From an uncultured Acidimicrobiaceae bacterium (GTDB taxonomy: Bacteria; Actinomycetota; Acidimicrobiia; Acidimicrobiales; Ilumatobacteraceae): 64,000 nt of DNA. Below, piece after piece: positions 38,997 to 43,548 of the stretch. The stretch is from NCBI GenBank assembly GCA_937890395.1, contig CALACK010000070.1, positions 62,001 to 126,000 on the forward strand. Reading direction: 5' to 3'. A program made the translations under genes and the position numbers. Under the pieces are notes generated by a model. It saw only the letters and a program-made list of their open reading frames with translations. It had not been told where the DNA came from and made no database searches. Position 1 is the stretch's first letter. Each line of letters opens with the position of its first letter.

Positions 38997-39037
38997 GGGC
39001 ACATATTTAAGTGTATTGAGAGAGAATTGCCGCAAAG

Positions 39038-39120
39038 TGCCCGAGATGGGAGTCGAACCCACACACCCTTTCAGATAACGGATTTTGAGTCCGTCGCGTC
39101 TGCCATTCCGCCACCCGGGC
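39038..39120 (-). tRNA. tRNA-Leu with anticodon CAA
   Basis: An 83-base class II cloverleaf: acceptor GCCCGGG with CTCGGGC, D arm with GGCAGACGC, anticodon stem ACGGA/TCCGT around loop CTCAAAA (anticodon CAA), a long variable arm, and T arm GTGGG TTCGACT CCCAT. Discriminator A, no encoded CCA. It reads UUG codons and stands alone between the small helical protein gene and fabD. Confidence 0.95.
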
Positions 39121-39255: not shown

Positions 39256-40431
39256 ATGCTTGCGTTCACCTTTCCCGGTCAAGGGTCACAGCGGCCTGGC
39301 ATGGGGCAACCTTGGGTTGGCCATGAGAGTTGGGATCTCGTTGATGAAGCATCAGAAATCGCAGGTCGCGATGTTGGTGCACTATTGCTTAGTGCAGACG
39401 CAGACACTTTAAAAGATACGCGCAACGCGCAGCTCACCACCTTTGTTTCAAGTTTGATGGTACTTGATGCAGTTGAACGTCTCGGCTTTGAGCCAAGCCT
39501 TTGCGCTGGTCATTCGCTCGGCGAATACACGGCACTAACCGCTAACGGCGCTCTCGGATTTGACGATGGGGTTCGACTGGTGATTGAACGGGCGGCGGCA
39601 ATGCATGAGGTCGGCCAAACATCGCCCGGAGTGATGTCTGCGGTACTCGGTCTCGAAGACGAAGATGTTGAAACTGCATGTCGTCGAGCTGATAGCGATG
39701 TTTGGATCGCAAACTTTAATGCCCCGGGCCAAGTAGTAATTGCCGGTTCATCTGAAGGTGTTGAACTCGCAAGTGTCCACGCCAAGCAAATGGGCGCGAA
39801 GCGGATTATGTCTTTGCCTGTATCTGGCGCGTTTCATACTCCATTTATGAGCGGAGCACGTGATCGATTGCGCGAAGCGATCGCGGCGGCCAAACCACGT
39901 GATAGTGATGTGCCGATCGTCTCGAATGTCGATGCCAAGGCACACAATCTCGGTGAGGAGTGGTCGACACTTTTGTCTGCACAGTTGTCAAGCCCTGTTC
40001 GTTGGCGGCAATGTTTATTGACTATGTCAGAAAATGGTATTCGAAATTTTATTGAACTCGGGCCAGGTGGTGTACTGACTGGCATGGCGAAGCGAACTCT
40101 CACTACCGCACGCACACTTAGTATTTCGACCCCTGATGAACTTAACAAACTAATCGAATGGATCGGTGAATCAGCCAAACCAAACCCAATGTTGTATGAA
40201 GGTGAACACCTATTTGCTGTTGAACGACTTGTCGTTAGCCCGAGTGCTGGCGTTTTCACTCCAAAGAATTCTCTAGCCGACGGTACGCGAATTAGCGTTG
40301 GTGATGTGTTGGGGATGGTCGGAGATCATGAAGTTCGATCACTATTTGACGGCGTGTTGCAAAACTTCATTAGCGTTGAGGGTGAACGGGTCACTGCGCA
40401 TCAGCCAATCGCTTGGCTCCGGACTATTTAG
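39256..40431 (+). CDS. fabD: malonyl-CoA:ACP transacylase with extra C-terminal lipoyl/biotinyl-like domain
   Basis: Residues 1 to about 310 are a complete FabD, which moves malonyl groups from CoA to ACP: FPGQGSQ, the nucleophile in AGHSLGEYTAL, the catalytic His in SGAFHTPFM, and the GPGGVL region. Residues about 326-391 are an extra all-beta segment with the spacing of a biotinyl/lipoyl barrel: SPSAGVF, then ISVGDVLGMVGDHEV, then FDGVLQNF and ITAHQPIAWL-like ending. At the place of the modified lysine (MKM) there is MVG, so it should not be biotinylated. Ordinary FabD is about 310 residues. It heads the fab operon. Confidence 0.93.
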   Translation: MLAFTFPGQGSQRPGMGQPWVGHESWDLVDEASEIAGRDVGALLLSADADTLKDTRNAQLTTFVSSLMVLDAVERLGFEPSLCAGHSLGEYTALTANGALGFDDGVRLVIERAAAMHEVGQTSPGVMSAVLGLEDEDVETACRRADSDVWIANFNAPGQVVIAGSSEGVELASVHAKQMGAKRIMSLPVSGAFHTPFMSGARDRLREAIAAAKPRDSDVPIVSNVDAKAHNLGEEWSTLLSAQLSSPVRWRQCLLTMSENGIRNFIELGPGGVLTGMAKRTLTTARTLSISTPDELNKLIEWIGESAKPNPMLYEGEHLFAVERLVVSPSAGVFTPKNSLADGTRISVGDVLGMVGDHEVRSLFDGVLQNFISVEGERVTAHQPIAWLRTI

Positions 40432-40440
40432 GGCTCATCA

Positions 40441-41391
40441 ATGCCGAAGATTCCAAATTCTGCTGTCAATGGTGTAATCACAGGCTGGGGTCGAGCGTTA
40501 CCAGAGAAGGTCGTGACGAACGCAGACCTTGCCAAAACCCTTGATACATCTGATGAGTGGATAATCGAACGCACCGGAATCGAACGACGACATATTGGTG
40601 GCTCGACAGCAAGCCTGTCAATTGAGTCAGGGCGTAAAGCAATTGAAATGTCAGGCGTTGACCCGTCAACAATTGACGCTTTAATTCTTTCAACCACTAC
40701 CCCAGACCGAACGGTGCCAGCAACGAGTGCCGCAGTGCAACACGGGCTTGGTCTGCGATGCGGAGCGTTCGATGTGAACGCCGCCTGTTCAGGTTTTGTT
40801 TACGCACTCGTCGCGGGCCACGGACTTCTGGCGATCGGATTGAAAAGAGTTTTAATTATTGGCACCGACACTCTTTCACGAATCACAGATTGGACAGATA
40901 GAAACACAGCCATTCTTTTTGCTGATGGATCAGGCGCAGCCGTTCTTGAATCTGTTGATGGACCCGGTCAATTATTGGGTTGGGATATCGATGCTGACGG
41001 CTCGTTAGAAGATCTTCTTTACGCCGAAATCGGCGGAACATTAAAGATGGAAGGCAAAGAAGTTTTTCGCCGCGCTGTACGAATCATGGTTGACTCTGCA
41101 GAAAAATCCTTAGCGGCCGCGGGTTTGACATCAAATGACATCACACTTGTCGCACCTCACCAAGCCAACGTTCGCATCATTGAGGCAGCGTGCAAGCGAC
41201 TAAATATTCCAATGAGCAAAGTCTCGTGGGTTGGCAACGAGAGCGGAAATACATCGTCGGCTTCTATCCCACTGGCATTATTTGAGGCTGCGGATACGAA
41301 TCGTCTTAAGACTGGTGACAACGTATTGCTGGTTGGCTTCGGAGCAGGTATGACTGCTGCCAGTGCAATCATAAAATGGAAGCAACCATGA
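40441..41391 (+). CDS. fabH: 3-oxoacyl-ACP synthase III
   Basis: The 316-residue condensing enzyme starts fatty acid synthesis by joining an acyl-CoA primer with malonyl-ACP. The catalytic triad is visible: Cys in NAACSGF, His in APHQANVRI and Asn in GNESGNTSS. The C-terminal GFGAGMTA is typical. It starts nine bases after fabD and overlaps fabG by four bases. Confidence 0.96.
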   Translation: MPKIPNSAVNGVITGWGRALPEKVVTNADLAKTLDTSDEWIIERTGIERRHIGGSTASLSIESGRKAIEMSGVDPSTIDALILSTTTPDRTVPATSAAVQHGLGLRCGAFDVNAACSGFVYALVAGHGLLAIGLKRVLIIGTDTLSRITDWTDRNTAILFADGSGAAVLESVDGPGQLLGWDIDADGSLEDLLYAEIGGTLKMEGKEVFRRAVRIMVDSAEKSLAAAGLTSNDITLVAPHQANVRIIEAACKRLNIPMSKVSWVGNESGNTSSASIPLALFEAADTNRLKTGDNVLLVGFGAGMTAASAIIKWKQP

Positions 41392-42092
41392 GCCGTGTTG
41401 TACTAATTACCGGTGGTTCAAAAGGAATCGGACTCGCGTGTGCTCAGCATTTTGCAAATCTAGGTGACAAAGTCGCAATTACTTATAACAACACGAAACC
41501 AACGAGTGATTTTTTTGCGGTCAGATGTGATGTAACTTCGCAGGCCGAAGTTGATGCCGCATTTGCAGCCGTCGAAGAAAAATTTGGCACGGTTCAAGTT
41601 CTTGTCTCAAATGCGGGTGTCACTAAAGATTTGCTTCTGCTTCGAATGAATGAGAGCGATTTCACTTCGGTGATTGATGCGAATTTAACTGGGGCATATC
41701 GAGTGTGCAAACGCGCCACTCAAGGAATGCTGAGGGCAAGATCTGGTCGGATCATTTTGATGTCTTCAGTTGTCGGTCTGCTTGGTTCAGCAGGTCAGGC
41801 AAATTATGCCGCTTCTAAATCGGGCTTGGTTGGTCTCGCCCGCTCGCTAGCGCGAGAACTTGGGTCGCGTTCGATAACCGTGAATGTGGTCGCACCTGGT
41901 CCTGTTGAAACAGATATGACGGCTGCGCTAACTGATGAACAACGCGCAAAAATGATCGATGCGGTACCTCTTGGTCGCACAGCGACCCCCCAAGAAATTG
42001 CAGGCGTGGTTGCCTTTCTTGCATCCGCAGATGCCGCATACATCACGGGTGCAGTAATACCAGTGGATGGCGGATTAGGCATGGGGCACTAG
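41388..42092 (+). CDS. fabG: 3-oxoacyl-ACP reductase
   Basis: The 234-residue short-chain dehydrogenase reduces 3-ketoacyl-ACP with NADPH. It has the glycine motif TGGSKGIG, SNAG, the catalytic Ser in LMSSVVG, and YAASK (Tyr and Lys). The ATG at 41388 overlaps the fabH stop as ATGA; the ATG at 41376 would extend into fabH and is less likely. It is followed after nine bases by the ACP gene. The position between fabH and acpP makes FabG rather than another SDR the best call. Confidence 0.94.
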   Translation: MSRVVLITGGSKGIGLACAQHFANLGDKVAITYNNTKPTSDFFAVRCDVTSQAEVDAAFAAVEEKFGTVQVLVSNAGVTKDLLLLRMNESDFTSVIDANLTGAYRVCKRATQGMLRARSGRIILMSSVVGLLGSAGQANYAASKSGLVGLARSLARELGSRSITVNVVAPGPVETDMTAALTDEQRAKMIDAVPLGRTATPQEIAGVVAFLASADAAYITGAVIPVDGGLGMGH

Positions 42093-42101
42093 ACTTCTCG
42101 C

Positions 42102-42341
42102 ATGGACCAACAACTATTTGATCGATTTAAAAAATGTGCAGTTGATGTTTTGGCGGTTGATGCTGGCAAAGTGTTACTTGAGGCAAAATTTAAAGAAGAC
42201 CTAGGCTCAGACAGTCTTGACCTCGTTGAGTTTGTGATGGCACTCGAAGAAGAATTCGGTATATCAGTACCGGAGAGCGATCTTGAAGGTGTCGACACAG
42301 TCGGCAAAGCGTTCGATCTCGTTACTTCGAAAGTCTCCTGA
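42102..42341 (+). CDS. acpP: acyl carrier protein
   Basis: The 79-residue acidic helical protein carries growing acyl chains on a 4'-phosphopantetheine arm. The attachment serine is in [11 protein letters not shown], and the following helix with [12 protein letters not shown] is typical. The N-terminus has a cysteine ([10 protein letters not shown]) that is uncommon but harmless. It lies between fabG and fabF in the fatty acid operon. Confidence 0.95.
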
Positions 42342-42360: not shown

Positions 42361-43548
42361 ATGCAAGGAGCAGGACATCGAGTTGCGATAACGGGCTATG
42401 GCGTTGTAGCACCTTGTGGCATCGGTAAACAGAACTTTTGGAAGGGACTTCTTGGTCCCGGTTTGAGCGGTTCGCATACTGTTGAAATTGAAAATTGGGA
42501 CGCGACACCTTACTTCGCCGGTCCAAAAGAACTTCGCCGTGCGGATCGATGTGAGCAATATGCTCTTGCAGCCGCACATGAAGCACTTACACAGTCCGGC
42601 GATCTGCCTTACGATCGCGGACGTATCGGCACGATCTTCGGTACCGGTATTGGAGGTTTACGCACTCTAGAAGGTCAGGTTGAAGTTCGAGTCGCAAAAG
42701 GCAAAGAACGAGTCTCGCCATTCTTGGTTCCAATGATGATGTCGAATGCGTCTGGTGCAGCAATTTCGATGCGGCACGGCTTTCGGGGTCCTGCTGAAAC
42801 AATTTGCACAGCGTGTGCTGCTGCTACACATGCACTTGGTTACGCCGCGCGACAAATTTCATGGGGAATGTGCGATGCAGTTATTTCAGGCGGTTCAGAA
42901 TCGGCAGCAACAATTACTGCGGTTGCAGGTTTTGAAAATATGACGGCATTGTCAACTTCGATGGTTAGTAAACCTTTCGACGCAACTCGAGATGGTTTCA
43001 TTTTTGGCGAAGGCGCAGCCGTCTTCGTGCTCGAGCGACTTGATTTAGCAATCAAACGCGGGGCAAAAATTCTTGGTGAGATTGTCGGTGCAGGTAGCAA
43101 CGCCGATGCCCACCACATCACTGCACCGTCGCCAGGTGGCGTTGGAGCAGCGGCATGTATGCAACTTGCGCTAACCGATGCTGACTTATCACCACAAGAC
43201 ATCAAACAAGTCAATGCACACGGAACCTCGACGCCATTAAATGACGCTGCCGAAGCGCAAGCAGTGTCGAAGATTTTCGGAAAGACCTATCCACCGATGA
43301 CCTCAATCAAAGGTGTGACTGGTCATCCACTTGGCGCAGCTGGGGCTCTTGAAGCGGCCGCAGTATTGCTTTCCTTTGAGCATCAATTGATTCCACCAAC
43401 TGCTAACACAACTGTCGTTGATTCTGAAATGGCGATTGACGTCGTCATCGGTAAGCCACGTGAGTGGGAGCCAGGCCCGACAATTTCAAACAATTTTGGT
43501 TTCGGTGGCCATAACGGCTCAATAATTATTTCGCCTTATCTAGATTAA
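42361..43548 (+). CDS. fabF: 3-oxoacyl-ACP synthase II
   Basis: The 395-residue condensing enzyme elongates acyl-ACP. The active-site residues are seen: Cys in ICTACAAATHALG, His in NAHGTSTPLND, Lys/His in SIKGVTGHPLGAAGA, and the glycine-rich end NNFGFGGHNGS. Length is a little short of the usual 410, mainly at the N-terminus, where the family's RRVVVTG start is VAITGYG. It ends the plus-strand fab operon and converges on fabZ with four bases between stops. Confidence 0.95.
   Translation: MQGAGHRVAITGYGVVAPCGIGKQNFWKGLLGPGLSGSHTVEIENWDATPYFAGPKELRRADRCEQYALAAAHEALTQSGDLPYDRGRIGTIFGTGIGGLRTLEGQVEVRVAKGKERVSPFLVPMMMSNASGAAISMRHGFRGPAETICTACAAATHALGYAARQISWGMCDAVISGGSESAATITAVAGFENMTALSTSMVSKPFDATRDGFIFGEGAAVFVLERLDLAIKRGAKILGEIVGAGSNADAHHITAPSPGGVGAAACMQLALTDADLSPQDIKQVNAHGTSTPLNDAAEAQAVSKIFGKTYPPMTSIKGVTGHPLGAAGALEAAAVLLSFEHQLIPPTANTTVVDSEMAIDVVIGKPREWEPGPTISNNFGFGGHNGSIIISPYLD

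Follow-up and report, generated by a model that had tools for sequence, protein, structure and literature searches.

A lysine-less biotinyl-type barrel fused to or encoded beside FabD in Actinomycetota, a candidate docking subunit of fatty-acid synthesis

The window analyzed here, a 64,000-nucleotide stretch of DNA from an uncultured Acidimicrobiaceae bacterium, contains at 39256-40431 (plus strand) an uninterrupted ATG-to-TAG frame for a 391-amino acid protein in which FabD is followed by a further domain. This domain resembles the biotin carboxyl carrier protein (BCCP), yet it has no lysine to biotinylate, which raises the question of what it does on FabD. The parts of the protein are:

39256..40170, plus strand: FabD catalytic part, residues 1-305, with Ser87, Arg112 and His194 (TIGR00128; invariant residues; full-length model)
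40177..40212, plus strand: flexible linker, residues 308-319 (pLDDT < 50 in the full-length model; raised dN/dS)
40198..40428, plus strand: lysine-less biotinyl-type barrel, residues 315-391 (predicted fold; structural and profile matches to BCCPs)
40318..40329, plus strand: V355-H358, a short turn at the place of the biotinyl hairpin (EAMKM), which is deleted (BCCP alignment; joint alignment; model)

The FabD part and the C-terminal barrel

Residues 1-305 are an ordinary FabD. The protein passes the curated whole-protein cut-off of TIGR00128 (279.6 vs 260.9 bits, residues 1-282), and Ser87 (within GHSLG), Arg112 and His194, which we take to be the residues expected for FabD catalysis, show no variation in 49 aligned relatives. 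When its own genome was searched, this gene was the sole match. The full-length model is of high confidence (pLDDT 94.1), and its top structural matches are solved FabDs of 293-316 residues, which align with the FabD part only. An ordinary FabD stops near residue 305-316 without a barrel, whereas the FabD of the window has one added; within the FabDs compared, the tail is thus not a regular part of the enzyme, an alternative that the initial annotation had left standing. Just upstream of fabD lies a tRNA-Leu gene (anticodon CAA) at 39037-39120 on the minus strand.

The added domain starts near residue 315-323, behind the low-confidence linker. Predicted alone, the C-terminal 81 residues form a confident (pLDDT 92.8), all-beta structure of six strands. 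BCCPs rank first when Foldseek is run with this model (Pyrococcus BCCP 5gua, E 3.1e-05), and VIA-align likewise puts BCCPs at the top, with the E. coli structures 4hr7 and 1bdo at Z 11.9 and 4hr7 superposing at an rmsd of 1.0 over 67 residues. Moreover, a profile of barrel relatives matches the P. horikoshi BCCP 2d5d (E 4.8e-06). The proposal that FabD is joined here to a lysine-less biotinyl-type barrel, originally made by eye, is therefore upheld by structure prediction.

In the window barrel, the Pfam model Biotin_lipoyl (PF00364) scores only 14.1-14.6 bits, under its gathering score of 22.1. Nonetheless, barrels and BCCPs (AccB, and the BCCP domain of biotin carboxylase-BCCP fusions) have a common fold and Gly/Pro framework, and a one-to-one profile-profile comparison with AccB gives an E value of 5.8e-15. 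An AccA3-type profile slightly outscores AccB for 101 of 140 single barrels, whereas the profile-profile comparison favors AccB. Judged from these sequence comparisons, the barrel appears to descend from BCCP. We rejected membership in the YqeB, RND or RnfC families, cofactor-free barrel-sandwich domains of related fold, because the sequence matches are weak: TIGR03309 (YqeB) reaches 27.2 bits, far under its cut-off of 220, and HlyD_3 and RnfC_N match weakly as well. The gene contexts of YqeB, HlyD/RND adaptors and RnfC are also unrelated to those of the barrel.

To compare the biotin attachment site, 140 distinct barrels were aligned jointly with 45 true BCCP domains of the same phylum. Lysine occupies the biotin position in 45/45 BCCPs and in 0/140 barrels, so that none of the latter qualifies as a BCCP by the EXMKM motif with its biotinylated lysine. 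(The profile also found one sequence whose EAMK motif is intact; being a genuine AccB, it was left out of the barrel set.) The column holds Gly in 66 barrels and a gap in 55; the gap is found in fused Acidimicrobiales forms, and free forms mostly have Gly. In the window barrel, EAMK of BCCP aligns to a 4-residue gap, the hairpin is about 4 residues shorter than in BCCP, and a two-residue turn connects the two strands in the model. A substitution of MKM by MVG, as first annotated, was rejected since the alignments show that the lysine column is deleted. It is consequently very improbable that the barrel is a true carrier of another group or is modified at another residue: such a role would suit the carrier fold and the flexible tether, but the tip has no conserved lysine, with Gly or a deletion at that column, and fused forms have a shortened hairpin.

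The two-domain model has a pTM of 0.77 while both FabD and barrel are confident, which suggests that the barrel is tethered to FabD and not fixed on it. In a set of 25 FabDs from the genus, the linker (301-314) has a median dN/dS of 0.27, compared with 0.043 in the FabD part and 0.054 in the barrel; since dS is near saturation, these values are to be read as a contrast only. The barrel is thus under purifying selection similar to that on FabD. Seven residues, G316, E317, E323, R324, F364, W387 and R389 (window numbering), show conservation among barrels and not among BCCPs. This pattern of conservation suggests that the barrel has a binding surface of its own.

Distribution and gene neighborhood of the barrel family

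Every one of the 33 full-length FabD matches listed for the genus and family of the window has the fused tail. The same fusion, sought in other Acidimicrobiia FabDs as initially recommended, extends through much of the order, and several Acidimicrobiia families have FabD without the barrel. In other families the barrel is a free protein of ca. 90 residues. Of 392 genomes in a phylum-wide sample of Actinomycetota, 79 contain the family at E <= 1e-10; a few with the poorest scores are AccB itself, and the strong matches span more than 20 family groups. Thus, at least 20 family groups of Actinomycetota have the barrel, FabD-fused or free and often as a separate gene, and it is not peculiar to this FabD. 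We rejected the idea of an oddity or chance extension confined to the window, since conservation of the tail extends across the genus, the family and many other families.

A scan of contigs returned 37 relatives, whose records all bear titles of Actinomycetota groups; the scan detects only forms with RxGQP[VI]AWLR and covers other phyla weakly, and these may therefore also hold the barrel. One of the 37 records, a metagenome bin (L143), is titled Bifidobacterium breve; its barrel is of the Acidimicrobiia type and the title is probably mislabelled. A plasmid collection searched for the barrel gave no match. When 88 FabD sequences are placed on a tree, the fused state must have changed at least five times, and well supported branches demand at least three of these changes. 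This is a quick tree with some long branches, and it does not give the direction of change; it shows repeated fusion or fission of barrel and FabD. One genome (G050) has a second FabD without a barrel (L073:1620-2558) in addition to its barrel-bearing FabD.

In the window, the FabD-barrel gene is followed by four genes of fatty-acid synthesis:

40441..41391, plus strand: fabH, the next gene after FabD-barrel (PRK09352 and TIGR00747 over cut-off)
41376..42092, plus strand: fabG (best NCBIfam matches are 3-oxoacyl-ACP reductases)
42102..42341, plus strand: acpP, acyl carrier protein (TIGR00517, 76.4 bits vs a cut-off of 70.45)
42361..43548, plus strand: fabF-type ketosynthase (PRK07314, 401.4 bits vs a cut-off of 387)

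The order fabD-barrel-fabH-fabG-acpP-fabF recurs across barrel neighborhoods. Flanks were long enough to count neighbors for 127 distinct barrels: the next gene is fabH in 120, and fabD is fused to the barrel or lies directly before it in 111. Where the barrel gene is free, it mostly begins ahead of the fabD stop codon or within a few bases of it, although our choice of the start codon nearest that stop leans towards small gaps. The family is thus a set of domains of ca. 80-90 residues that are either fused to FabD or encoded between fabD and fabH.

By gene order in these 127 barrels, FabH is a more constant neighbor than fabD or accD. The main rival to the docking role proposed below is therefore that the barrel binds FabH or ACP alone and passes malonyl-ACP to the first condensation, the carboxylase not being involved. 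The 120 cases with fabH next speak for this, as do 12 barrels that stand before fabH without FabD alongside (e.g. L126, L165-L167). However, barrel fusions were seen with FabD only and none with FabH, and in two cases the gene immediately behind the barrel is a carboxyltransferase gene in place of fabH. We consider this alternative rather unlikely.

It is unlikely that the barrel only stabilizes or allosterically tunes FabD, with no other partner. Such a role would fit both the fusion to FabD and the tight coupling of the genes, as well as the fact that FabDs of other lineages work without a barrel, from which it follows that the barrel need not be catalytic. Yet the disordered predicted linker and the pTM of the full-length model speak weakly against fixed packing on FabD, and some barrels neighbor fabH or accD but have no fabD in the vicinity.

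Links to acetyl-CoA carboxylase and the comparison with plant BADC

In several groups (L126, L165-L170, L174, L175) the order is barrel-fabH-fabF-accD; the carboxyltransferase of one such cluster (L167) was confirmed by Pfam. In two distant lineages (L142:3932-5666 and L124:4112-5953), the carboxyltransferase gene lies directly behind the barrel with no fabH between, and PF01039 matches with E values of 5.7e-163 (L124) and 1.4e-121 (L142). The link to accD is found in a minority of clusters; the window lacks it, the carboxyltransferase genes of its genome being on other contigs.

We also counted by hand the occurrence of AccB in 119 genomes (barrel at E <= 1e-13, AccB at E <= 1e-14). AccB is present in 0/24 genomes with the barrel versus 55/95 others (Fisher p = 4e-08), a difference that counts as a trend only, since kinship was left uncorrected. 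There is a counter-example: L180:77-4211 encodes barrel-fabD-biotin carboxylase-BCCP-fabH, where a lysine-less, diverged barrel coexists with a true BCCP bearing EAMKH. Further, at other places the window genome encodes a biotin carboxylase-BCCP fusion with EAMKM and two carboxyltransferases; therefore, the barrel is no replacement for the carrier.

Descent from BCCP and the lack of AccB in the sampled barrel genomes could also be explained if the barrel were a functionless relic of an accB gene. This is hardly credible, given that its dN/dS is close to that of FabD (subject to the near saturation of dS noted above) and that it is conserved over many families with conserved residues of its own. 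Together with gene position, these features led us to disfavor a non-functional relic.

A lysine-less relative of BCCP in fatty-acid synthesis is already known from plants. Plant BADC proteins have 25-30% identity to BCCP, are without AMKL, and have been described both as inhibiting the plastid carboxylase and as helping to assemble it (PMC11926652). The definition of a BADC-type pseudo-BCCP (PMC11926652), BCCP-related and without the biotinylation motif, fits the barrel, and both act in or are encoded with fatty-acid synthesis. By this analogy of description, the barrel seems comparable in kind to BADC. BADCs are plastid proteins of a heteromeric carboxylase, whereas the barrel is bacterial, is tied to fabD and fabH and, in the window, has its hairpin deleted. 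To our knowledge, there are no FabD fusions of plant BADC.

Proposed role of the barrel

Because a lysine-less domain recurs between FabD and FabH genes across many Actinomycetota, we propose that the barrel probably serves fatty-acid synthesis as a docking subunit, one that is non-catalytic and has so far been overlooked. The strongest statement that we infer from the evidence is that it is a non-catalytic subunit of FabD or of the FabD-FabH step, and it is very likely a subunit of FabD or FabD-FabH of some kind. That the C-terminal domain is specifically a cargo-free pseudo-carrier, a docking subunit of FabD likely joining the carboxylase and/or FabH-ACP, we regard as about evenly balanced.

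According to this model, a biotinyl-type barrel would have lost its biotinylation hairpin and would carry nothing; the carrier fold would serve docking only, with a flexible linker in the fused form. The barrel would thereby keep FabD beside its supplier (acetyl-CoA carboxylase, the source of malonyl-CoA) and/or its client (FabH-ACP). The docking first suggested for the domain points the right way, in that fusions and gene order connect the barrel with FabD and FabH and, in some lineages, with the carboxyltransferase gene of the carboxylase; channelling of malonyl groups may follow from it. Reach to the carboxylase is suggested by the accD neighborhoods, by descent from a carrier that docks there and by the precedent of plant BADC; on these sequence-based grounds, docking to acetyl-CoA carboxylase is a tentative reading that falls somewhat short of an even chance. 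The fullest version, in which a dedicated Actinomycetota pseudo-BCCP acts as a cargo-free docking adaptor for malonyl transfer and physically joins FabD and FabH to acetyl-CoA carboxylase, is doubtful.

Bacterial type II fatty-acid synthesis is usually pictured as freely diffusing enzymes. If the docking role is correct, the presence of such a carrier-like, non-catalytic and conserved subunit would suggest that the malonyl step is physically coupled, and a central pathway would have in the barrel a component without a name as well as a bacterial counterpart to plant BADC, one that is easily tested because some lineages already fuse it to FabD.

In the cases checked, neither Pfam nor NCBIfam has a model for the barrel family as such, and a search of the open-access literature found no description of a FabD with a biotinyl-type domain or of the barrel as a free gene. 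As a bacterial family, in its position within the fab operon and in its fusion to FabD, the barrel thus appears to be new. One barrel-like domain lies outside a fab cluster: at L125:3873-5435, it ends a long frame by sulfotransferase and O-antigen-ligase-like genes.
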